13,342 bases of DNA from Chrysochromulina parva. Taxonomy: Eukaryota; Haptophyta; Prymnesiales; Chrysochromulinaceae. Position 1 is the first letter of the stretch; each line of letters starts with the position of its first letter. Shown here in pieces: positions 3 to 12,640 of this stretch. A program made the translations under genes and the position numbers. The notes below the pieces were generated by a model. It did no database searches and had not been told where the DNA came from. It saw nothing but the letters and a program-made list of their open reading frames with translations. The DNA lies in NCBI GenBank assembly GCA_002887195.1, contig PJAB01001603.1, positions 1 to 13,342 on the forward strand, given 5' to 3'.

Positions 3-3000
3 GGCAGCACGCTGGTCGTGTGGATCGCGGAGAACATGCTCGACGAGCAGCGGGCCAACGGCGTCCTCTTTGGCGTGCTCGCTCCGGCTTTGCAGTCGCT
101 TCATGAGCCTTGGATCAACGATCGCTCCACCAGCGAGCTCACATCCAGGGTGCTGCACAAATCGGGGCAGATGGTCTTTGGCTCGCAGTGGGAAGCGGCT
201 GACTGCCTTGCCGTGTCGACGATAGTTCCGCAGCTGCGCTGGACGCCGTCGAGCCTGCCGCAGGGCCGTCCGTGGGTGCATAATCTCGCCTCGTCGTTTG
301 AAGGAATGGCTCTGCCGAGGGACGGTGCGGTGCAAACTAGGTTGATGATGGGCACAGACGACGACGAGGGCGAGCAGCTGCACATCGAGGTGCAACTCAC
401 AGTGCGTAAGAATGGAAAGGAGATCGACGTGCCGCAACTTTTTGCGAGAGAGGATGGCCGAAGGCCTGAGATGGTCTTTGCTTGGCTGGCAGACGCACTG
501 CCCAACGGGGATGCGAAGAACGTGACCGCCCTGTATTCTCACGAGGTCCAGAGGGCTTCTGGTGACTGGATGAGCACGCTGCAGGTGCGGCTGATGATCG
601 GCGAGGTCGGCTATCTGCACCAGCTGCGCGACTTGGCGCTGACGGGTACACTGGAGAAAGAGCTTAGCAGCGCGTCGCTTGGCGGCTGTCGCTACGAGGT
701 CTCCGTGGACCGCGCGCAGTTTGCTCTGCTCTACGAGGAGAGTGTCTTATCACTCGATAAGCTGACCGTGCATCAGAGAGAGAAGCTCCGAGAGTGCTAC
801 GGCACGGCCGAGTCCAACCCGCTTTATCGACTGCTTCGCCGCTCGCAAGAGCTCTTCGACGGCATTGCCACGCCGAGCTACATCCACGTCAAGGCTCCTG
901 CAGGGGCAGGCAAGACCTTTGTGGCGCTCAACTACCTGCTTAGCCGGCTGCAGAGCGATCCGAATCTGACGGCGCTGTTCGTTGCGCGGAACCGTGCCCT
1001 TTGCCTCTTTTTCGTCCGCTGGATCATCAAACGCGAGCCCAACCCGCTCTATCGTCTGGGACTGCTGCGCCGCTTGCAAGTGCTCTTCGAGGGCGACAAG
1101 CGTGGACATCCGTTTGCCCTTGGCCCGCAGCGAGTCATGCTCAAAAATGGCGTCATCCAGGTTGAGTCATCTCACTCGGACACGCACAGGTTCAGCCTGA
1201 CAATCGTGGACGAGGCGCATCATATTTACACAAACCCTCTGTGCCGCGAGTGCGTCGGGGCCTATGTGCTACCGCCGACAGAGGCACGACACCTCATGCT
1301 GCTCTCAGACATCTCGCAGTCGAGTGGCAAGGAGGAAGAGCTCTATCCCAAGGGAAAGCCGAAGATGGTCACGCTCACGGAGGTCGTGCGCTCCTCGCAG
1401 CGCATTGTCGAGGCGGCCTCTGCATTCCAGCTGGGCGACTCCGTGCACAAGATCTCATGCCAGCACTCGGCAGCTGGCCCGCCGCTCAAGGCCTTCATGT
1501 TCAACCTCGAAGGTGGGGTGCAGCCAGGCTTCACTCTTGGCCAAGTCCGCCAGTACGCTGGCCAGACCGTTGAGGCCATCAAGCACGTCATCTCGATGCT
1601 CGGCTCCCTGCGGCTGCACGACCGCGTTGCGATCGTCGTCGACGAAGCCATTCTGAATGCCTTCCGGGGCACCTTTTCCGGAGGGGAATACCAGGGTGGC
1701 TTGCTCGGTGCGGAGCTGCTTGAGCACTTTACGAGGCGAGAGTTGGCGACGAAGCAGCAGATTGAGGCTGGGCACGCCCGATCCTTTCAGATCATCGACG
1801 CGACGCAGGCGGCATCGATGGCGATGGGGGGCAGCCTGGACGATCGCGAGTGGCTGATCGTGGACACGGTCGAGGCGTTCGATGGGCTGGAGAGGCTCGT
1901 CGTGATCGCCGTCGGCCTCGATGCCAAGATTGTCGAGGGTGATGCCTCGATGCTCAAGACCCGATCGTTACTCTACCGTGCGATGACTCGCGCGCACATG
2001 CTCGCCATCGTCGTTCAGCACAGCATCCCCGGCGGCTTCTTTGCCTTCCTCCATGAAGTCGCGCTCGACGAGTCTGCTGAATTTGATGCCGCGAAGGCGC
2101 AAAAGGCGCGCGACAGCACGGCGCTCAACAAGATGATGACAAAGGCGTCCTCAGCAGAGCCAGCGCACGCCACAAAGCAAGCCAAGGTGACAGTCCCAGC
2201 ATTGTCGACCGCAGTTCGAAGCCTCTTTAGCCGATTGGTGGGGAAAGCCTCTTTAGCCAGTGCTGGCAGCGGCGCGGCCTCTTTAGCCGATGCTGGCAGT
2301 GGCGCAGCCTCTTCAGCCAATGCTGCTAGTGGCGTTGTCTTTGCAGCCAATGCTGGCAGCGGCACAGACAATGCTGGCGCAGCCTCTGCAGACAATGCTG
2401 CTAGTGGCGTCACCTCTGCAGACAATGCTGGCAGCCGCACAGCCTCTGCAGACAATGCTGGCAGCGGCGCAGCCTCTGCAGCCAACCGTCAGATCAGGAG
2501 CCGCGTCGTCAAGCAGACGGTTTGGGACGCGAGCAGCATCGAAGAGTCTGAGGCGGTGAAGGCTGCTCCGTTCGTGTTGAATCCCTTTGATTCCTGGGCT
2601 AGTGCTGCACCGAAACCCACCGGCCGCATCGGGATGGGTGCGGCGGTGCAGAAGGCGGCCGCCGAGCGGGCAGCCGCCGAGAGGGCGGCCGCCGAGCGGG
2701 CGGCGTCCGAGAGGGCGGCGGTGCAGAAGGTGGCCGCCGAGAGGGCGGCGGCGGAGGAGCTGCGGCGCCGAGCCACGGCGCTAGGGCTGCTGCAGGCGCT
2801 CACGGATGTCAACGTCGCCGACGACGCGATGCTGAAGAAGGCGATCGCGTGGTGCGACGAGCAGGGCGTGACGAGCGTGTCCGACATGGTCGAGTACGAG
2901 ATTGTCGACGACTTTGTCGGCCACCTCGGCCTGAAGACGCTCCCCGGCAGGAAGCTGCGCAGCATGCTGCAGACACCGACATCGAAGGGAAGGCGGCCAA

Positions 3001-3047
3001 GAGGGCCGAAGCTCAGAAAGCAGAGGCTGAGAGGGACGACATTTTGA
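3..3047 (+). CDS. SF1 helicase-like ATPase with SAM-like domain (5' partial; N-terminal part of a helicase-SAM-TIR-kinase gene)
   Basis: The frame is open from the left edge, so the true start lies outside the window; the first ATG in frame is at 36, and GTG 18 is counted here as residue 1. Residues 1-290 are unrecognised. A P-loop ATPase follows: Walker A APAGAGKT (293-300), Walker B VDEAHH (397-402), a motif III-like LMLLSDISQSS (about 426-436), VDTVEAFDGLERLVV (615-629) and motif VI YRAMTRAH (653-660). This set fits a UvrD-like superfamily-1 helicase/NTPase, which would couple ATP hydrolysis to nucleic-acid or protein remodelling. Then come an Ala/Ser/Asn/Gly repeat linker (about 740-822), an Ala-Glu-Arg coiled stretch (about 874-915) and a SAM-like domain (about 923-983) ending GLKTLPGRKLRSML. 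The last roughly 24 residues before the TGA are basic and look out of frame; coding sense continues in the -1 frame. No intron is needed. ATPase call firm, exact family uncertain. Confidence 0.8.
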   Translation, partial: GSTLVVWIAENMLDEQRANGVLFGVLAPALQSLHEPWINDRSTSELTSRVLHKSGQMVFGSQWEAADCLAVSTIVPQLRWTPSSLPQGRPWVHNLASSFEGMALPRDGAVQTRLMMGTDDDEGEQLHIEVQLTVRKNGKEIDVPQLFAREDGRRPEMVFAWLADALPNGDAKNVTALYSHEVQRASGDWMSTLQVRLMIGEVGYLHQLRDLALTGTLEKELSSASLGGCRYEVSVDRAQFALLYEESVLSLDKLTVHQREKLRECYGTAESNPLYRLLRRSQELFDGIATPSYIHVKAPAGAGKTFVALNYLLSRLQSDPNLTALFVARNRALCLFFVRWIIKREPNPLYRLGLLRRLQVLFEGDKRGHPFALGPQRVMLKNGVIQVESSHSDTHRFSLTIVDEAHHIYTNPLCRECVGAYVLPPTEARHLMLLSDISQSSGKEEELYPKGKPKMVTLTEVVRSSQRIVEAASAFQLGDSVHKISCQHSAAGPPLKAFMFNLEGGVQPGFTLGQVRQYAGQTVEAIKHVISMLGSLRLHDRVAIVVDEAILNAFRGTFSGGEYQGGLLGAELLEHFTRRELATKQQIEAGHARSFQIIDATQAASMAMGGSLDDREWLIVDTVEAFDGLERLVVIAVGLDAKIVEGDASMLKTRSLLYRAMTRAHMLAIVVQHSIPGGFFAFLHEVALDESAEFDAAKAQKARDSTALNKMMTKASSAEPAHATKQAKVTVPALSTAVRSLFSRLVGKASLASAGSGAASLADAGSGAASSANAASGVVFAANAGSGTDNAGAASADNAASGVTSADNAGSRTASADNAGSGAASAANRQIRSRVVKQTVWDASSIEESEAVKAAPFVLNPFDSWASAAPKPTGRIGMGAAVQKAAAERAAAERAAAERAASERAAVQKVAAERAAAEELRRRATALGLLQALTDVNVADDAMLKKAIAWCDEQGVTSVSDMVEYEIVDDFVGHLGLKTLPGRKLRSMLQTPTSKGRRPRGPKLRKQRLRGTTF
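2239..2485 (+). repeat. Coding minisatellite, Ala/Ser/Asn/Gly linker
   Basis: Units of roughly 27-30 bp, imperfect and in frame, encode variations of ASADNAGSGA. They form a flexible linker between the ATPase core and the coiled and SAM-like regions. Length differences between copies are multiples of three, so the frame is kept; expansion and contraction in the population would be expected. Confidence 0.8.
2638..2760 (+). repeat. Coding repeat, AERAA units (predicted helix or coiled coil)
   Basis: Short 12-15 bp GC-rich units (gccgccgagcggg type) encode AAAERAAAERAAAERAASERAA-like sequence, with a VQK variant appearing twice. This would form a long charged helix before the SAM-like domain. 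The same composition (KAAKRAEAQKAEAERDD) reappears after the SAM-like domain in the other frame, which supports both frames being coding. Confidence 0.75.
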
Positions 3048-4840
3048 CCAAGTTCTGTGCCGAGGCCTTCATGGTGCCACCCATCATCACAGAGGAGATG
3101 GCGCAGAAAAGGAAGAGCTATGGACGCTCGCTCGTGCCAAGGGGCACGGCGTTTGACCGATACTATCCCGAAGTGGTAATCTCGTATGCGACGGGTCGCC
3201 GTGAGCAGGATTGCGTAGGCGCCGGGCCAGGCATGTATTATGCGGCGGGTTTCATCAGTTTCCTCGATCAGTGCGGCGTGCAATGCTTCAGCGGGCTGCA
3301 CGTCCCTCCAGGGACCGACTGGAAGGTGTTCATGCTGCGTCTGAAGGGGCGACATGCGAAGGCCAAGGTGCTGATCGTCCTCAAGACCAAGTCGTTCTAC
3401 GAGTCCGCGCCTTGTCTGAAGGAGCTCAGCTGTGCCATCGATCAAAAGATTCCAGTGATACCCATCGTCCTTGAGGAGAGCTTGCCCGGCCCCAAACAGC
3501 AGTGGTCGAAGCTCACGGACCAGGATTCCGAGGTGATGATCGCCAAAGTGCAGGAGCACCTCGGCAAGATCAACGACATCCCAAGCCCCGGCACGTTGCT
3601 CACCGTGCCCATCACTCTGGACGAGATCATCAAGGAGATCAATAAGCATGTCACAACTAAGGCCCAGGAGCTCACGACGTTGGCCACACAAAACTTTGCC
3701 GCGAAACGGGGCGCTCGTACATACAGTTGGAGCCGCATGAAGGAAAGCGGCACTGAGATCGATGGAAGCTCGATGCACGTGGTCAACTTAGTGAGCTGGA
3801 AAGAGCTGACGCTGAAAGAGGGACTCGGAGCGGGCCGCTTCAGCGAGGTGCGTGTGGCCGTGTACAACTCGACCCCATGCGCCATCAAGAGCCTAAGGGC
3901 GGCGACCACGCCGGCGGCCCTGCAAGAGCTAATGAATGAGTTCGAGCTCACGATGCGCCTGCACCACCCCAATGTGCTCCTCACCTTCGGCATCGCACAC
4001 GACGGCGACGGCGGGAAGACGGGCATTCTGATGGAGCTCATGCCCGCCTCGTTGCTCGATGTGCTGCACCACCACCGGCAGCGCGATCAGCTCGCCACGT
4101 GGGAGGCATCCCTCGCCCTCATCGCCCTCGATGTGGCCAAGGGCATGGCGTACCTGCATGCGATGGATGTGGTCCATCGCGACCTGAAGCCTGGCCACGT
4201 GTTGCTCACGGAGCACTGGGACGCCAAGGTGGCCGACTTTGGCACCGCACTCAGCAAGTACGCCGGACAGGCGGAGGGGGCCGCGGGCACGCCGCCCTAC
4301 ATGGCTCCCGAGGCCATTGCGCTCACCTCGGGCGCAAAAGCCAAGCCCACGGACGTGTGGAGCTTCGGATGCATGCTTGCACACATGGGGACGCGGTCCA
4401 TACCGTACAGCCATGTGAGACTGCCCGCCGGAACGCCTCCGGAGGAAGACTTGCGCGCGCTTATGAGGATCATCGTCAGAGGTGGAGCCACCCCGCTCGA
4501 CCAGCTGCGCAAAGTGGCCGGCTGCCCACCTGTCATCCTCGCGCTTACCACCCGTTGCCTTCAGACCGATCCTGTTCAACGGCCTGCGTTCCCTTTTATC
4601 GTGGACGAGCTCGAGCACATACAGGACGAGTTGCGCGCTTCGTGCCCCTCGACCAAGCTGCTTCGAGCTGATGTTCTGAGACAGTCGGGCGTATCCGCGT
4701 CGCCAACCTATGCTCCCGAGTCCAATTGGGTGACCTCATTGGCAAACTTAAACTCATTATTTTCCCCTTCCCTGGCCGATGGCATTAGGCAGCCGCCACT
4801 CGAGGATGGCCAAGTGGTAGACGGACGCTTATATGCTTAG
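2969..4840 (+). CDS. TIR domain - TKL-like protein kinase (C-terminal part of the same gene, shifted -1)
   Basis: Coding sense resumes in this frame with a charged helix (KAAKRAEAQKAEAERDD, near 2990-3040) directly after the SAM-like domain of the previous frame. If translated alone, ATG 3071 is the first plausible start. A TIR domain spans about 3166-3650: strand A VVISYATG, and SAPCLKELSCA with Glu at 3422-3424 at the position of the catalytic glutamate of NAD-hydrolysing TIRs, then IPVIPIVL. The kinase spans about 3812-4640: Gly-rich loop GLGAGRFSEV (3821-3850), Lys of AIK (3887-3889), HRDLKPGHVLL (4175-), DFG (4235-4243), GTPPYMAPEA and a C-lobe ending in DELEHIQDELRAS. HRD, DFG and APE are intact, but the usual Asn of the catalytic loop is His (4196-4198). 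TIR joined to a TKL kinase suggests a signalling or immune role (inference). It could be a broken gene because of the frame change. Confidence 0.85.
   Translation, partial: ADTDIEGKAAKRAEAQKAEAERDDILTKFCAEAFMVPPIITEEMAQKRKSYGRSLVPRGTAFDRYYPEVVISYATGRREQDCVGAGPGMYYAAGFISFLDQCGVQCFSGLHVPPGTDWKVFMLRLKGRHAKAKVLIVLKTKSFYESAPCLKELSCAIDQKIPVIPIVLEESLPGPKQQWSKLTDQDSEVMIAKVQEHLGKINDIPSPGTLLTVPITLDEIIKEINKHVTTKAQELTTLATQNFAAKRGARTYSWSRMKESGTEIDGSSMHVVNLVSWKELTLKEGLGAGRFSEVRVAVYNSTPCAIKSLRAATTPAALQELMNEFELTMRLHHPNVLLTFGIAHDGDGGKTGILMELMPASLLDVLHHHRQRDQLATWEASLALIALDVAKGMAYLHAMDVVHRDLKPGHVLLTEHWDAKVADFGTALSKYAGQAEGAAGTPPYMAPEAIALTSGAKAKPTDVWSFGCMLAHMGTRSIPYSHVRLPAGTPPEEDLRALMRIIVRGGATPLDQLRKVAGCPPVILALTTRCLQTDPVQRPAFPFIVDELEHIQDELRASCPSTKLLRADVLRQSGVSASPTYAPESNWVTSLANLNSLFSPSLADGIRQPPLEDGQVVDGRLYA
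4691..4840 (+). other. Candidate optional 150-nt intron at the kinase 3' end
   Basis: It begins GTATCC right after the codons for QSG and ends ATATGCTTAG, where the final TAG is also the in-frame stop of the kinase ORF. Its length is 50 codons and it is in phase 0, so removing it deletes the stop and joins the kinase to the duplicated C-lobe segment in frame. If retained, it encodes an ordinary Ser/Pro/Asn-rich tail. Only the splice sites and phase support it. Confidence 0.4.
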
Positions 4841-4850
4841 TGGAGGAGCT

Positions 4851-5090
4851 GGAACGCCTCCGGAGACTTGCGCGCACTCATGGCGATTATTGTCAATGGT
4901 CAAGCGACCTCGCTCAACCAGCGGCGCAACGTGGCCGGCTGCCCACCTGTCATCCTCGCGCTTACCACCCGTTGCCTTCAGACCGATCCTGTTCAACGGC
5001 CTGCGTTCCCTTCTATCGTGGACGAGCTCGAGCACATACAGGGCGAGTTGCGCGCTTCGCGCCCCCCGACCAAGCTGATGCGAGCTGATG
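4851..5090 (+). repeat. Tandem copy of the kinase C-lobe end (source 4430-4673)
   Basis: The block is nearly identical to 4430-4673 over about 240 bp, 417-421 bp downstream. It starts at ggaacgcctccggag and lacks four bases (gaag) early on; several substitutions follow. It stays open in the kinase frame from 4841 to the stop at 5216-5218, and encodes LRALMAIIVNG...VAGCPPVILALTTRCLQ... with the same PVQRPAF and DELEHIQ motifs. It could be an alternative last exon reached by splicing out 4691-4840, a readthrough extension past TAG, or a dead duplicate. Substitutions that keep the reading (D to G, F to S, L to M) slightly favour something once translated. Confidence 0.8.
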
Positions 5091-5218
5091 TCCTTCTGCG
5101 TTCTGGGACTGTGTGCACAGTCTTCGTGAAAGCCCATACGGGTAGTTACCTGCGGTGGTCAGAAGGTCCCCTAGGGTCAAAAAGTGCCACTTTAGAATTG
5201 TACCGTAGTCCGTACTAG

Positions 5219-5387: not shown

Positions 5388-8300
5388 TCATCGGGGCCGT
5401 CCACTCGCCCGGCGCAGCGCGTCCACCCGCCCGAACAGATCCACTTGGCCGGGGCCATCCACTCGTCCTAATAGGGCAAGTTCGGTGATCGGCTTTCCTC
5501 CCGTGCGCCGGAAGTCGAGGGTGAAGCCAATAAGCGAGCACGGTGGCGCCGGCTCCTTGGCGAGGTGAGCCACCAGGTCGGCATGCTGCTCGCGCGCGTC
5601 CTCATGCAAGCAGTTGCGAAGGAGCTCCTGCAACGCATGGCAATCACGTGCAATTAGCCGATGCAATCACGTGCAATCGGGCATGCAAGCAGTTGCGCAG
5701 GAGCTCCTGTAACGTATGGCCATCTCGCCGTGCGCCACCATTCAGAAGGTCAATTCCATAAGAGGTCCATCATGTGCAATCGTGTGCAATCAGAGGCACT
5801 CACCTGCAACGTATCGTTGTGCGCCACCAGGAGGATGGAGTCGTGTGGCGCGTATTGAACCTGCGTGAGCAGCTCATGCATGCAATCAGCTGAGGCAATC
5901 ACGTGCAATCAGGCGTGCATGCAACCAACTGAGGCAATCACGGGCAATCAGCCGAGACCATCACGAGCCATCAGGCGATGCAATCACGGGCAACCATGCA
6001 CTGCACCGGCGTGAGAAGCTCCTGCACGCGCGACTGGAAGTCCTTTTCAGGCTTCGGGTTCGTCAAGGCAATCACGTGCAGTCTGGCACGCACCTGCGTG
6101 AGCAGCTCCTGCATGCGCGCCTGGAAGTCCTTTTCGGGCTCCGGGTTCGTCGACCACCACTGCGACTCCACCTCGGACGTCGTGATGGGCACCTTCTCGG
6201 CCAGCAGAGGCAATCAGCGACCCTCAAGGGCAATCAAGGGAGATCAAGGGAGATCGAGGGAGATCAAGGGAGATCGCACCTTCTCGAGCTCGGCCAACAG
6301 AGATTCCTCATCTGACTTGCTCACCTGCAATCAGGCATACACACGAGTCATTGTTGGGCCATCAGAGGCCATCAGAGGCCATCAGAGGCCATCACCTCGC
6401 GGCTCTTGGCGAGGCAATCAGAGGCCATCAGAGGCCATCACCTCGCGGCTCTTGGCGAGGCAATCAGTGGCCATCAGAGGCCATCAGAGGCCATCACCTC
6501 GCGGCTCTTGGCGAGGCAGCGTGTTCGTATATGCTCTCCGAACGAGTTGCCGATCGACGTGTGCAGGTTCGTCAACTCGCGCCTCTCTCGCGCCATTGGC
6601 TTGAGCTCGACCGATACGGCGCCGTTGGCCGTGAGGGGCTGCAGTGCGACCATTGCGGTCTGCACACAGCGGGCGAGTGGCGAGGACCAGATCGCGCCCA
6701 CCTGCGGCCATCAGGGGTCACCAGGGGTCATCAGGATTAATCAGAGGTAGTCAGTGGCGAGCACCAGATCGCGCCCACCTGAAGCAATGAATCGATGAGA
6801 GCCACCGGAGAGGCGGCGCCCGACACGGCGCCCCCGGCCGTTGAGTCTGTCGGCACGCGCGACGGTTTCGGCGAGGGTGCCGCCGACGGCATGCAAGCAC
6901 AAGAGCCGCCGCTGCCTCCGGCCGCCGCAGCGCTCGCCACGGCGCTTGTCCCTTCCACCGTCGCCTTCGCCACGTCATCAGCTACGCCGCCCTTCTGCTC
7001 ATCATCATCATCATCATCATCATCTGCGGGTGGAGGTGGCAACCCCACAGCCAAGGGCGCCGTCGTGGGCACCCTTGCCGCCACCGCCTCCAAGGCGGTG
7101 CCCGTGACGGCGCCCTCAGCGGTGGGCGCGGCGCCCGACACGGCGCCTCCCTCGCCGGCGGCGCGCAGGCGGACGGCATCTGTGAAGAGAACACGAAGCC
7201 CTTTGGACTGTGGGGTGATGGGTGTGGGGTGTGGGGTGTGGGGTGTGGGGTGAGCGGTGTGTGGTGGGGATGAGGGTGGGTAGAGGGGGGAGGGGGGAGG
7301 GTTGGGGGGTGGGGGTGCGGGGGGAGGTTACCTGCGCCCATCCCGCGGGGGAGAGCGGGTGGTCGGTCCTCTTAGCGATCTCACGCAGCTGGCCAGCAAT
7401 CTCGACGCCCTTACCCAGCGCGCCGCGCCCGGCGCCGATCAAGGACGAGATCTTGCCGCCGAGCGAACGGCCGCTCAACTCGGCGCTCGAGCTCGCGATC
7501 TCGGCGCTCTTCTCGGACGGCGCCGTCGTGGGCGCCGCCATGGCCTCGAGCGAGTCACGCACGGCCGCCGAGAAGGGGCTGTCGTTCACAGCCACGTTGT
7601 ACGGCGTCCCGACCGAGATCGAGCTGTGAATCGAGCTGTGAATCGAGCTGTGACCGCCACGGCGCTCTCGGTCTACCGCAGGGGGCGAGGTGGGTTCGCC
7701 CGGCGCGGCGCCCTCGATCTCGTCGTCGTCGTCGCCCAGTACGGCGCCGTCCTCGTTGGCCGCCGTCCCGAGCGCCGTACTGGGCACCGCGCTTCGGTGC
7801 GAGCCGCCCCTAGTCGCCGCCGTCGCGGCGTGCTGAAGGAGGAATAACTTTTTGATCGGCGGCACTGGGCCCACCCGCCACAGCGTGATCGTCACCGCCT
7901 CCACCGTCGCCGCGTCCGCTCGCGCCGTCGTGGGCACCACGACGGCGCGCGCCTTGGACGAAAGTTCTTTGGGGGGGCCTCCGATGAGCACCGCACCCAA
8001 CTCGAGAGGCGCCTCCGTCACGCAGCGCAGCGGTACCTCGGCCTTCGCGAGCAGCTCGTCCTAATTAGGCAAGGAGCGGTCATCAGCGGTCATCCGAGGC
8101 CGTCAGCGGTCATCAGAGGTCATCGATGGCCATCAGAGGTCATCAGAGGCAATCTCACCTTGAGCTCGTCACGCAGCTCCACGTGGAGCATTGTGTCAAG
8201 CTCCCAATGCGGGCGCCCGAGACGGCGCGCCGAGTTCCACATGCACACTCGGGAGCCCTCGCCCTTGGCGTGAGAGGCGGACGATCTCTGTGTCGAGATG

Positions 8301-11300
8301 GCGCTGCGTACCTGATGAGGGAGGCCATCAGAGTTGATGAGGGAGGCCATCAGAGCTGATGAGGGAGGCCATCAGAGTTGATGAGGGAGGCCATCAGAGC
8401 TGATGAGGCGAACGATCTCTGTGTCGAGATGGCGCTGCATACGAGGGCCGACGCCCAGTACGACGCGCGCATCGCCGGCCGCTGGTCATCAGGGGTCATC
8501 ATGGGTCATCATGGGTCATCAGAGGTCATCAGAGGTCATCAGTGGTCATCAGGGGTCATCATGGGTCATCATGGGTCATCATGGGTCATCAGGGGTCATC
8601 AGGGGTCATCAGAGGTCATCAGCGTACGAGGGCCGACGCGCGCATCGCCGGCCGCGCGCCGTTGGTCTCCACGTGCGCCTCGATCGCACACCAGCTCGTG
8701 TGTCGGCCGGTATGCAGTCCAGACGAGTCGGAGAGCCACATGCGTGCGTACCTGATGAGGCGGGCAATCAGACGTCCTCAGAGTCGGAGAGCCACATGCG
8801 TGCGTACGAGCGTCCGAGGCCCTCCCGATGCAATCAGGGGTCATCAGATGTCATCAGAGGTCATCAGCGTACGAGCGTCCGAGGCCCTCCCGATGCAATC
8901 AGGGGTCATCAGATGTCATCAGAGGTCATCAGCGTACGAGCGCCCGAGGCCCTCCCGGTGGGGCACGTTGCGCGCCGAGAAGAGATGGATCACCTGCGCG
9001 GGCTCGGAGCGCCGTGGTGAGCGCTTGCAGTCGCCTGTCTGCCGATCGAGTGGGTAATTAGTGGGTCCTCAGGTAATCAGTGGGCCATCAAGTATTCAGT
9101 GGGTCATCAGGTAATCAGTACATCAGGCAGTCAGGGCCCTCCACACGCACCGGCCCGACGAGCTGCTCGAGCTCGCGCTGGATCACGAGATTATAGCTCT
9201 CGTGGGGCGTCCTCGCCGTCTGCAGCAGGATCAGGTCGGTGATCATCCGCGGACCGCGCGAAAAGTCGAATTGGCAGCTCACGACGGCGCAGTTGGGCAT
9301 CACGTCCTCGCACAGCTTGCGGGCTGCTCATCAGTGGCGCATACGTGGGCCATTAGTGGGGCAACAGCGCTCATCAGCGGATCATTAAGGGGTCATTAAA
9401 GGGTCATTAGTGGGGCAACAGCGCTCATCAGGAGGCTACTTAGTGGCTCATCAGCGGGTCATTAAGGGGTCATCAGGTCATTCGTGGCTCACCGAGCTCG
9501 GACTCATCAGCGGGTCATTAAAGGGTCATCAGGTAATTCGTGGCTCACCGAGCTCGGGCTCGCGCCGTTGCACTTCCGAATGCAAGAAGCGTTGGAAGAG
9601 CGCGCGAAAGAAGTGGGAGTGACCAACCTGATGAGGTGGACAATCAGAGGCCATTAGAGGCCATTAGAGGCCATCAGTGACAATCACGTACCAGCACAAT
9701 GCGCTCGTGCGGGCAGTAGTGGATCTGGTTGATCAGCTCATCCATCCGCACGTCCACCTCCTCCTTGCTCTCGGCCGCGGTCACCCACCTGTGGGGAGAG
9801 GATCGGGGAGCGCCGTGGTGAGCACTTGCATGCTGGGCTGCACGGCCTCCTCCTTGCTCTCGGCCGCGGTCACCCACCTGTGGGGAGAGGATCAGGGGGG
9901 CGCCGTGGTGAGCACTTGCATGCTGGGCTGCACGGCCTCCTCCTTGCTCTCGGCCGCGGTCACCCACCTGTGGGGAGAGGATCAGGGGGGGCGCCGTGGT
10001 GAGCACTTGCATGCTGGGCTGCACGGCCTCCTCCTTTCTATGGGCCGCGGTCGCCCACCATTGCTGTTCCACCTCAGTTACGTCAAATTGGGCCGCCTGT
10101 TCACACCTCGCAAAGTCCTCGGCGCCCGCGAGGGCGCGAAGCAGCGACGTGGCTCGCGTGCCACAATCGGCGCCGAGGGATTGCCCTATCGTATCGCGCC
10201 CGCCAAAATTCTTCTTCTCACGTGCGTTCGGCTTCAGGTGGAGGGACATCCCAGAGGAGGACAGTAGCGGCTGCAGTAATTCGGGACATTAGGAGGACAG
10301 GAATTAGGTGGAGGGACATCCCAGAGGAGGACAGTAGCGGCTGCAGTAATTAGGGACATTAGGAGGACAGGAATTAGGTGGAGGGACATCCCAGAGGAGG
10401 ACAGTAACGGCTGCAGTAATTCGGGACATGAGGAGGACAGGAATTAGGTGGAGGGACATCCCAGAGGAGGACAGTAACGGCTGTGATGAGGGCGGCCATC
10501 AGTGAGGAGGGAGGCAATCAGTGGCAATCAGGGACATCCCAGAGGAGGAAAGTAACGGCTGCAGAGCCACGAGCACGCACGTGAGCTCATCAAGGGCCAT
10601 CAAGGGCTATCAAGGGCCATCAAGGGCCATCACCTGCAGAGCCACGAGCGCGGTCTGTACCGCGCGAGTCAGCGGTGAGCACCAGAGCGCCTGTGACGAG
10701 GAGGAATGGCGCCGTGGTGAGCACTGGCCTTCGTCTGCCAATGGGCTCCAGATTGGCAACGTACCTGTGCCGAGACGAGCGACCGAACGGCCGCAGCCTC
10801 CAATGGCGACGACACGTCGGTCGAGCTTGTGAGTGCCGCCCGAATCGCATGCTGTAGCCGGTACGCCTGCGCATAGCCGGTTTCGTTCAACGGGTGGTCT
10901 GGCAATGAGGTTCATTCATTGAATCAGAGGCTCATTAGCATGCAAACACACCTGCGCATAGCCGGTTTCGTTCAACGGGTGGTCGACGTGGGAGACCATC
11001 TCCATGACGTTCTTCTTGGCCTGCGCCTCGTTCCAGCGGCTCTCGCCATGACGAATGAAGGAGACTGTCTTAAAATGGATCGGAGACTCGATCTGCTGCA
11101 GCGTGATCGTCGATTGCTGCGACGGTTTCATCACCGTCATCGAGGGCTCTCCCTCCTCACTGGAGTACGGCCTCATCACGACGGTGAGCGGCTCGTTCGT
11201 GCCCAGGGTCGAGGAGGGCACGTTGGCGAAGGCGAGGAGGTGCTCCACTTTGCCCGTTTGCCAGAGCTCGACGTGTAACGACATGAGGGGCGTCACCGCT

Positions 11301-12640
11301 CCGCACCTGATGAGGGAGGCCATCAGAGCTGATGAGGGAGGCCATCAGAGCTGATGAGGGAGGCCATCAGAGCTCGACGTGTCACGACATGAGGTTCGTC
11401 ACCGCTCCGCACGTGAGCTGCCTCGCCGAGTTCCACAGGGGCGCGGACGCCCGGATCTCGGCGTCATCTCGGCGCATCTCCTTCCGGATCTCGGCGTCAT
11501 CTCGGCGCATCTCCTTGAGCTCCTTGAGCGGCCAGGAGGCGACGCCGCCCACGCACCTGATGAAGGAGGCCATCAGAGCTGATGAGGGAGGCCATCAGAG
11601 CTGATGAGGGAGGCCATCAGAGCTGATGAGGGAGGCCATCAGAGGCGACGCCGCCCACGCACCGGTCGAGTGAGTCGACCACCCAGAGCAATCAAGTGCA
11701 ATCAAGTGCAATCACGTGCAATCACGCACCGGTCGAGGGAGTCGACCACCCACATGAGCACGTACACCGCCGCGCCCTCGCGATCGGTGCGTATGAGCTC
11801 ATGCGAGAGCTTTGCACCATGGAGCAGAATGACGGGGCCGGCAGTGAGCCGTACGTATTGTGTGTAGCTGCGGTGGAGCTGTGGGGGCTGGCCGTCCGTC
11901 CCTAATAAGGGCTGACCGTCCGCGCCGAGCGGCGGCCCATTGCCTAATATAGGCTCTTGGAGGGTGAGTGACTCGGGTGATGCGAAATGCTGTGGAATCA
12001 CGAGAGCGGCACGCCGTCGGAGAGCCGCATCGACCTCGGCATCGTCGCCCGCCCCGCCGACGACCGAGCGGGGCGTGCCTCCTGGTGCGATCTGGCTGCG
12101 CATGCCGAGCAGCAGGCGCTCCACTTCGCCCGAATCGAGCTGCTGCGCGCTCTCGCGGATGAACGTCCTGCAGGCGACGAGCTCCGGAGATGTAATTAGA
12201 AGTGTCATCATCAGAGGCACTCAGAGGCACACAGAGGCACACGGAGGCACTGAGTGGCTCTCAGCGCACCTGAAGAAGGCGAGCTCCGGCAACCCGAGAA
12301 GCCACGGGTGCGCGCTCAGGGCCGCCTGCACGCTGCGAAGCGCCTCCACATTCACTTCCGTAGGCGCCGCGGGCTCGGGCGCCTTGGCTGCCGCTGGCTC
12401 CAGGTTGGCTGGGGGGTCGGGCGGCGATGCGGCCGGCGGTGGTGGTGGCGCCGGCGCTGGCGCCGGCAGCGGCGGAGGCGGCGGGGGCGGCGGAGGCGGA
12501 GGCGACAGCGGAGGTGGTAGCGGCGGGGCCGCTGGCTGTGAAGGCGCCGCAACGTCGTCCTCAGGCGGCAGGTCTGCGCCTTCGTCGAAAACAGGCGTGT
12601 CCGCCTTGGACTTGGGCTTGATATTGATGCCAAAAGGCAT
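5388..12640 (-). CDS. Double C2 + histidine phosphatase protein, 20 exons, 1387 residues (reconstructed)
   Basis: Exons in transcript order: 12640-12270, 12167-11730, 11556-11413, 11306-10952, 10866-10765, 10690-10634, 10270-10059, 9788-9692, 9627-9549, 9323-9151, 8993-8938, 8751-8628, 8311-8159, 8060-7332, 7207-6779, 6701-6498, 6324-6280, 6192-6094, 5860-5804, 5627-5388. All 19 introns are GT-AG, and phases match at every junction. The start is the ATG at 12640 (MPFGINIKPKSK); the stop is TGA 5390-5388. Layout: Pro-rich head (residues 1-123), helical region (124-225), C2-1 (about 227-375), phosphatase 1 (395-676), C2-2 (677-845), phosphatase 2 (857-1387). The halves align with each other in order, for example EVEQQWW/EVESQWW and DFSRGPRMITDLILL/DFRRTGGKPITELALL, so the gene arose by internal duplication. 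C2 suggests membrane or protein docking; the substrate is unknown. Exon borders are my inference from phase, homology between halves and splice sites; exons 15 and 11 had competing acceptors. Confidence 0.82.
6236..6276 (-). repeat. 10-bp GATCTCCCTT repeat in intron 17
   Basis: Four units of GATCTCCCTT/GATCTCCCTC fill the 5' part of the 87-nt intron. The period is again 10 bp, but the unit differs from the CTGATGACC family. Confidence 0.85.
6999..7024 (-). repeat. (GAT)n microsatellite coding poly-Asp in exon 15
   Basis: A TCA/ATC trinucleotide run on the + strand is read as GAT on the - strand. It gives eight consecutive Asp residues in the acidic insertion of phosphatase domain 2. Confidence 0.9.
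7208..7331 (-). other. Intron 14, CA/C-rich low complexity
   Basis: It runs from GTAACC to CACCCCACAG. Unlike the other introns it lacks the CTGAT repeat and consists of CCCCACACCC-type tracts. The chosen acceptor (7209-7208) keeps phase 0 and gives SKGLRVLFTDAVRLRAA after GWAQ. The next AG downstream (7181-7180) would shift the frame. Confidence 0.6.
8312..8399 (-). repeat. 22-bp repeat in intron 12, four units plus a partial one
   Basis: The transcript-sense unit is CTCTGATGGCCTCCCTCATCAG-like, adjoining the acceptor of exon 13. Each unit has CTGATG and CATCAG arms (inverted repeats) and ends with an acceptor-like CATCAG or CATCAA. Confidence 0.9.
8484..8622 (-). repeat. 10-bp repeat array in intron 12, 14 units
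   Basis: The unit is nGGTCATCAG on the + strand, i.e. CTGATGACCn in transcript sense, in perfect 10-bp register with small changes (CATGATGACC variants). Shorter runs of the same unit fill introns 1, 6, 8, 9, 10, 11, 13, 15, 16 and 19. Confidence 0.95.
9789..10058 (-). repeat. Intron 7: three tandem GT...AG units of 91, 90 and 89 nt
   Basis: Units 10058-9968, 9967-9878 and 9877-9789. Each starts with GTGGGTGACCGCGG (first unit GTGGGCGA), a copy of the first 31 or so bases of exon 8, and ends with CTCTCCCCACAG. Lengths differ mainly by a C-run. Every unit is therefore a complete candidate intron, and every unit junction is AG|GT. Confidence 0.9.
10238..10517 (-). repeat. 70-bp repeat, four copies, spanning the start of exon 7 and intron 6
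   Basis: The period is exactly 70 bp (starts 10238, 10308, 10378, 10448). Each copy contains the first ~35 bases of exon 7 behind an acceptor-like CTGCAG (CATCACAG in the most upstream). The copy nearest exon 7 (acceptor just before 10270) is the one whose reading continues into HLKPNARE. A fifth, partial copy at about 10530-10580 still carries the end of exon 6 fused to exon 7. Confidence 0.9.
11307..11372 (-). repeat. 22-bp repeat in intron 3, three units
   Basis: This is the same 22-bp unit as in introns 2 and 12. It follows directly on a 40-base copy of the start of exon 4 (11412-11373) and ends at the exon 4 acceptor. Confidence 0.9.
11451..11516 (-). repeat. 33-bp tandem duplication inside exon 3
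   Basis: Two perfect 33-bp copies encode EMRRDDAEIR twice, adding exactly 11 codons. It shows that exons, not only introns, take up tandem duplications in this gene when the frame is kept. Confidence 0.9.
11557..11644 (-). repeat. 22-bp repeat in intron 2, four units
   Basis: Same unit as in introns 3 and 12, placed between a fossil exon 2/exon 3 junction copy (11682-11643) and the real exon 3 acceptor. Confidence 0.9.

Follow-up and report, generated by a model that had tools for sequence, protein, structure and literature searches.

Results

Gene content of the window

The window, meaning the whole 13,342-nt stretch of DNA analyzed here, is contig C1603 of the Chrysochromulina parva assembly (45 Mb, 2,199 contigs). 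The best named matches to HSP70 of the same genome come from haptophytes (Scyphosphaera, 93%; Tisochrysis and Emiliania, 92%; Diacronema, 89%). The window holds the following features:

12640-5388, minus strand: histidine-phosphatase gene, 20 exons, 1387 aa, with tandem branch 1 domains
2603-4840, plus strand: uninterrupted open reading frame (ORF) that encodes a protein kinase domain and also matches TIR_2 weakly
3-3047: 1014-aa ORF with helicase/ATPase matches, overlapping the kinase ORF
4494-4674 and 4911-5091, plus strand: 181-bp direct repeat; part of the kinase ORF's 3' end recurs 417 bp downstream
11451-11516, minus strand: exact in-frame 33-bp tandem duplication in exon 3

The kinase ORF and the 1014-aa ORF are possibly one gene that is broken near position 2980.

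The phosphatase gene model was built by hand from a three-frame translation, and all of its 19 introns are GT-AG. The splice borders were placed with protein homologs and not with transcripts of the alga. The 1387-aa product matches Pfam PF00300 (E = 7.8e-23). Among 8,000 candidates scored, four homologs (P0001 to P0004) passed an E-value cutoff of 0.001. P0001 is continuous over all 19 junctions, with short alignment gaps at or near junctions 12, 13, 15, and 16. P0001 and P0002 do not carry the exon copies described below, and the two may be transcripts or cDNA. P0003 (76% identical) has no break at junctions 1 to 10 and an intron-like read-through at junction 11. P0004 stops past junction 7 and has intron-like read-throughs near junction 6 and in two further places. 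These two homologs could be either unspliced transcripts or genomic sequences that contain fewer introns. The 33-bp repeat is missing from all four homologs; duplications arise within coding sequence as well.

Exon ends are copied inside the introns

We compared each intron with 60 nt of its own flanking exons, with the flanks of the other 18 introns as a control. The original prediction held that at least 12 of the 19 introns contain copies of adjoining exon ends, and the search bore this out. Own-exon copies reached a local score of at least 24 in 11 introns and of at least 22 in 12 (introns 2, 3, 4, 6, 7, 11, 12, 15, 16, 17, 18, and 19). In the mismatched control, a score of 24 was reached by 3 of 342 pairings with upstream exons and by 4 of 342 with downstream exons. 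Over 20,000 permutations, the mean was 0.96 of the 19 introns and the maximum was 5, and none reached the observed sum. Introns 1 and 9 gave weak copies only (scores 20 and 21), and the exon-copy search of introns 5, 8, 10, 13, and 14 returned no copy.

Of the 27 copies listed at a score of at least 22, 22 run up to the extreme end of the exon. Because the exon queries end at the exon boundary, the extent past the junction was read from a free repeat search. In that search, the repeat passes the junction by 0 to 3 bases in introns 2, 3, 4, 7, 11, 15, and 18. The layouts are given below, all on the minus strand, with A' denoting the copied end of the upstream exon and B' the copied start of the downstream exon:

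11557..11729: intron 2, compound; insert, joined A' (22/23) and B' (21/21), then a cassette ending in TCATCAG
11307..11412: intron 3, clean B-type; 45-nt copy of the exon 4 start (42/45, donor GTGCGG), then a cassette of three CTGATGGCCTCCCTCATCAG units (acceptor)
10867..10951: intron 4, clean A-type; 52-nt insert from GTGTGT (donor), then a 33/33 copy of the exon 4 end at 10899-10867 (acceptor GCGCAG)
10691..10764: intron 5; second-family core GTGCTCACCACGGCGCC present, exon copy not detected
10271..10633: intron 6, compound; insert, joined A' (18/19) and B' (27/29), followed by a tandem array of 70-nt units that each contain the copied exon 7 start
9789..10058: intron 7; three units of about 90 nt, each a 32-nt copy of the exon 8 start plus a second-family cassette, GCATGCAAGTGCTCACCACGGCGCC..CACAG
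9628..9691: intron 8; ends in CACCTCATCAG, exon copy not detected
8752..8937: intron 11, compound; exon 11 end twice (21/23), the second joined to B' (27/27), and a cassette ending in CCTCATCAG
8312..8627: intron 12, compound; TGAT array, split A', joined B' (36/38), and about four 22-nt cassette units ending in GCCTCCCTCATCAG
6702..6778: intron 15, near-clean B-type; 26-nt copy of the exon 16 start (25/26), then an insert of TGAT units ending in GATGGCCGCAG
6325..6497: intron 16; two further 21/21 copies of the exon 16 end amid TGATGGCC units
6193..6279: intron 17; partial copy of the exon 17 end (13/14) near the intron 3' end
5861..6093: intron 18; copies of the exon 18 end (51/56 and 22/23), the 22/23 copy at the acceptor
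5628..5803: intron 19; degenerate A' joined to B' (24/25), insert after

The particular copies that had been pointed out beforehand were all recovered. They are the near-copies that open introns 3 and 15, the copy that closes intron 4, the two further copies of the preceding exon end in introns 16 and 18, and the copies with both exons joined in introns 2, 6, 11, 12, and 19 (in intron 19, the degenerate A' was joined by eye).

Two mirror-image layouts are present. In the B-type (introns 3 and 15), a 5' copy of the downstream exon start is the donor, and the insert is the acceptor. In the A-type (intron 4), the insert contributes the donor, and the copied end of the upstream exon contributes the acceptor. 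The copy in introns 3 and 4 is confined to one side of the junction and has no internal AG|GT. In intron 15, CAG stands ahead of both copies, and only this CAG is common to them before the junction. The compound introns 2, 6, 7, 11, 12, 16, 18, and 19 are stacked events or repeated units of copy plus insert, and in introns 6, 7, 11, and 16 such units are multiplied in tandem.

Two cassette families recur across the genome

The first family is made of sense-oriented units of about 10 nt (CTGATKRCCT) and ends in TGCCTCCCTCATCAG; the 45-Mb genome contains its exact 14-mer terminus at least 1,050 times. In the window gene, unit cores (TGATKRC-like) number 92 in 3,089 bp of intron compared with 4 in 4,164 bp of exon, and the antisense strand of the introns has 1. 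Counted as words, of which one intron may hold several (intron status was checked in samples only), exact genome matches number 162 for CTGATGGCCTCCCTCATCAG, 726 for CTGATGACCYCTGATGACCYCTGATGACC, 494 for CCTCATCAGGTRCG, and 1,050 for the terminus GCCTCCCTCATCAG, the last with a pattern that omits sites with an A seven bases further. The backwards control gave 0 for each. The second family, GCATGCANGTGCTCACCACGGCGCC..CAG, is a motif of about 45 nt, and its core GCTCACCACGGCGCC has 723 genome matches and again 0 in the backwards control. The exact matches to CCTCATCAGGTRCG, GCCTCCCTCATCAG, and GCTCACCACGGCGCC place similar intron sequences at many unrelated sites. Because the inserts match genome-wide cassettes, the filler between the copies is not local DNA.

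Among 100 terminus matches listed, the next base is G in 92 (70 GT, 18 GC, 3 GA, and 1 GG), and GTRCG follows in 23. The GC after 18 of them suggests possible GC-AG introns with a duplicated GC donor. Elsewhere, cassette words lie at a regular spacing of about 50 to 80 bp (C42:42385-42635, C165:32324-32459, and C2024:6152-6371), as if units of duplicate (here called X) plus cassette had been tandemly multiplied.

Carriage by viruses or prokaryotes was rejected, as the 25-nt array pattern had 0 matches in viral contigs and 0 in GTDB genomes. The 16-nt terminus had 9 viral matches, close to chance by a rough estimate. A LINE source for the cassettes appears doubtful, as the assembly, which may lack repeats, gave five weak RVT_1 matches only.

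Splice-site duplications at other sites

For the B-type, 60 sites were taken in list order, mostly one per cluster, from the first 100 CCTCATCAGGTRCG matches listed, pre-filtered for GTRCG. The best copy of the downstream exon within about 400 bp upstream scored at least 24 at 34 of the 60 sites, compared with 21 of 600 mismatched pairs. At 30 of the 60 the copy was anchored at the splice site, compared with 5 of 900 mismatched pairings; two separate runs of the anchored search selected an identical set of 30. In this sample, the duplicated target provides one of the splice sites. Splice-site-anchored duplication was absent at the other half of the 60 sites, which may be older or otherwise born.

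In the 30 positive sites, X is 13 to 53 bp long (median, 25), the insert is 23 to 182 (median, 59.5), and the intron is 53 to 203. The lengths of X and insert are anticorrelated (rho = -0.50, p = 0.005, 30 sites), as expected under selection for a minimum intron length. GT opens the first copy in 25 of the 30; the other five open with GC, GC, AA, CG, and TT, and the donor is unassigned there. In this B-type sample, the upstream exon ends in AG, so that AG precedes the first copy, at 3 of the 30 sites. The duplicates are identical in 8 of the 23 ungapped cases, and 13 differences between exon and copy show no pattern by codon position. The insert 3' ends hardly vary, and 54 of the 60 have an A 17 nt ahead of the splice site (the search pattern sets the last 9 bases); the 5' ends are variable. 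When we looked by eye for terminal inverted repeats in the 30 inserts, we saw only a possible CTGAT/ATCAG hairpin near the 3' end. The frame over the join is open in 27 of 30 spliced sites versus 6 of 30 unspliced ones. This test is weak, because joins shifted by 1 or 2 bases still stay open in 20 to 25 of 30 in this GC-rich genome.

An HSP70-like gene on contig C266 has an 89-nt intron with an X of 20/20 and a TGATGACC array. With this intron spliced out, the Pfam score rose to 55.3 bits from 45.8, and the match reached profile position 371 instead of 360. The frame is restored in this gene, as it is in the window gene.

The second-family sample, drawn from the loci already sampled and three added for it, consisted of seven distinct motif sites with CAGG[TC] within 60 nt; others were dropped, including both of L145. 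A duplication at a score of 24 was present in four of the seven, compared with 0 of 42 mismatched pairings. At the remaining sites, L094 scored 21, L056 scored 23 and is apparently coding, and L144 had no duplication. Loci L060, L094, L107, and L143, together with window intron 7, have a flanking-duplication layout like that of the first family.

The A-type word AGGTGATKRCCYCTGAT has 36 genome matches, 3 of them inside the window, and 7 of the other 33 were examined. An exon-end copy stands at the splice site in four of the seven: L132 (24/24, score 48), L133 (28/28, score 56), L127 (17/21), and L128 (11/11), the last two both at score 22. In the other three, no copy was found at the splice site; L130 has one elsewhere, and L129 and L131 have none. 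The maximum over 42 mismatched pairings was 23, and scores of 22 lie inside that range. Because only L132 and L133 exceed it, the support for the A-type is a few clear cases (two of the seven). The A-type inserts vary at the end opposite to that of the B-type inserts.

The process is uneven

Candidates of the form X..X with GT..AG numbered 5 in 155.6 kb of neutral DNA, compared with 18 in the 13-kb window, 14 of which are on the gene's strand. The neutral DNA comprised 33 loci, picked via HSP70 and TCP1 matches plus five contig starts, and one of its five candidates is the HSP70-like intron described above. Genome-wide ubiquity of duplicate-flanked introns was rejected on this count. Five HSP70 matches lie in a single open frame (profile position 1-2 to at least 532 of 599), as do seven TCP1 matches (position 1 to at least 487 of 490); the others are split. 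The few neutral candidates and the unbroken HSP70 and TCP1 frames together argue that the process is uneven. The unbroken chaperone domains are those of TCP1 on C1647, C246, C88, C78, C1999, C1807, and C1036 and those of HSP70 on contigs that include C1518 and C153. Set against the 19 introns of the window gene, they show a very unequal intron load.

Discussion

Probable insertion of cassettes at staggered cuts

We suggest that these introns are insertions of small repeated cassettes at long-staggered cuts in exons, with duplication of the target, and we consider this origin likely. The geometry of a staggered break, in which one exon terminus is repeated at the opposite end of the intron, is found in introns 3, 4, and 15 and at the 30 positive loci. 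The introns look like introner-type insertions with unusually long and variable target duplications. It is the combination of a one-sided duplicate with a genome-wide filler that favors an introner-type insertion in place of a local tandem duplication.

In this scenario, a long staggered cut or a pair of nicks would open the exon, and a cassette would be inserted there. Fill-in of the overhangs would duplicate the target X (13 to 53 bp in the sample and up to about 56 in the window) and so yield X-cassette-X. In the common B-type, the cassette would carry the branch point, the pyrimidine tract, and the CAG, and the upstream X, from its GT, would be the donor. GC donors may also be used in the B-type, judging from the bases that follow the terminus matches. 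In the A-type, which is rarer, the donor would come from the insert, in some cases with the final G of X added, and the downstream X ending in AG would be the acceptor. Splicing would excise the cassette and one X and leave the mRNA unaltered. Slippage or unequal exchange between X copies would later multiply the unit of X plus cassette, as in introns 6, 7, 11, and 16, and exchange between X copies could also remove an intron precisely. The staggered cut, the slippage, and the copying of the cassette from other introns may each have occurred in this way.

The cassette may have been templated by RNA. In one version, the 3' parts of excised introns would be reverse-transcribed at a nick, as in target-primed reverse transcription; we regard this as possible, though doubtful. 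The constant 3' end of the insert, which is the intron end, its variable 5' end, the variable length of the duplication, and the sense orientation of the units in the window all suggest RNA templating. In addition, the G that follows 92 of the 100 termini listed, most often as GT or GC, leaves few of them outside possible splice sites. However, splicing selection could yield most of these features, including the 3' constancy (the last 9 bases of which the pattern fixed) and the GT or GC. Furthermore, RVT_1 matches in the assembly are few and weak, the 3' junction has no AG match (the upstream exon rarely ends in AG), and the A-type inserts vary at the other end. The more specific idea that 3' fragments of excised intron RNA, with their branch point and acceptor, reseed introns, being copied into staggered nicks in transcribed exons where the fill-in of 13 to over 50 bp becomes the donor, is tentative and rather unlikely. 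Reverse splicing would call for an AG-ended upstream exon and no duplication, and the B-type sample has few such exon ends and does have the duplication.

A non-autonomous DNA transposon, that is, an introner of the classic kind whose target-site duplication is exceptionally long, is an unlikely vehicle. In its favor, Gozashti et al. (PMC9860276) report introners from Chrysochromulina sp. and from other organisms, with a splice site supplied by the duplicated target. However, the same paper gives 3 to 9 bp for the duplications of earlier families, and the present duplications are neither short nor constant, as those of a TIR transposon or MITE would be. Moreover, the variable 5' ends leave no terminal inverted repeat visible among the listed inserts.

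Minisatellite instability could instead have copied the borders of introns that already existed, in which case the copies would say nothing about birth. The repeated border units of compound introns 6, 7, 9, 11, and 16 are of the kind that such instability would make, and A-type L128 and L132 are likewise tandem units. This explanation is nevertheless distinctly improbable, as it does not account for the simple A|B'-insert|B layout of introns 3 and 15 and many of the 30 loci, or for the simple A|insert-A'|B layout of intron 4 and L133. In neither layout is there extra intron sequence past the copy.

The original prediction ascribed the introns to local tandem duplication of a piece of exon that contains AG|GT, and a minisatellite could then have expanded inside. 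Part of this account stands. Flanking exon DNA is doubled, the exon copies are real, the duplicate is a splice site, several stages are apparent, and some units of X plus insert are tandemly multiplied. The part that is not supported is a plain duplication of an AG|GT segment as the primary event. Apart from intron 15, where CAG|GT is barely within the repeat, AG|GT does not normally lie in the duplicate and the repeat does not supply both splice sites; the copy mostly ends 0 to 3 bases from the splice site, and AG seldom precedes the first copy. An identical cassette terminus at the junction in hundreds of places is also beyond a local process. We therefore rejected local tandem duplication as the only cause on the strength of the one-sided copies and the genome-wide cassettes, and even with later expansion it seems highly unlikely as the origin. 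An assembly artefact is scarcely credible: repeats are readily misassembled, but this architecture is found again in many unrelated contigs, where the copies have diverged and the frames are restored.

Cassette insertion at staggered cuts, if correct, bears on the long-standing question of intron origin, for which few datable cases exist. Here, there are many apparently recent births in one genome. Both mirror geometries are present, and one 19-intron gene has simple, compound, and multiplied stages. Because the long flanking repeats mark the ancestral site to the base, age, target preference, and loss by recombination should be measurable from strains of one species. The finding would widen the range of introner target duplications given in the papers cited here, and it would point to a staggered-cut or RNA-templated route over a standard DNA transposon. 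If the RNA-reseeding idea were true, introns would breed introns via RNA, no dedicated transposon would be needed, and each intron could, through its long repeats, be lost precisely or multiplied by slippage.

Comparison with known systems

A literature search, mostly of titles and with subscription journals largely uncovered, found no report of long-duplication introners in haptophytes. Introners or introner-like elements were reportedly the subject of work by Huff et al. in 2016. The introners of Gozashti et al. (2022; PMC9860276) resemble the present introns in forming families of similar introns over many genes and in that the element provides one splice site and the duplicated target the other. 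Their target duplication is 4 bp in Chrysochromulina sp. and 3 to 9 bp in earlier families, whereas ours are 13 to 53 bp and variable and flank tandem units of about 10 nt or a motif of about 45 nt with a variable 5' end. The introner elements of Amoebophrya (PMC7789003) are likewise invasive introns with direct repeats. However, those direct repeats are 3 to 5 nt, with inverted repeats of 8 to 20 nt and non-canonical borders, and the present introns are GT-AG.

Intron gain at staggered double-strand breaks in Daphnia (2014; PMC4202315) has the same one-sided repeat geometry, with 33 such repeats of 4 to 12 bp. The present repeats are longer, and their filler comes from genome-wide cassettes. 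Rogers and Bendich (2025; PMC11782384) interpreted direct repeats of 4 to 30 bp at or near intron borders as insertion footprints; their abstract does not name a cassette family, and the repeats reported here are up to about 50 bp long and located at the splice site. Duplicated exonic sequence beside the intron is shared with intron gain by tandem genomic duplication (PMC4974935), but in our case a non-local insert lies between the copies and AG|GT is normally outside the duplicate. Longer and variable duplications, together with cassettes built from units, separate the present introns from the Daphnia and introner cases.
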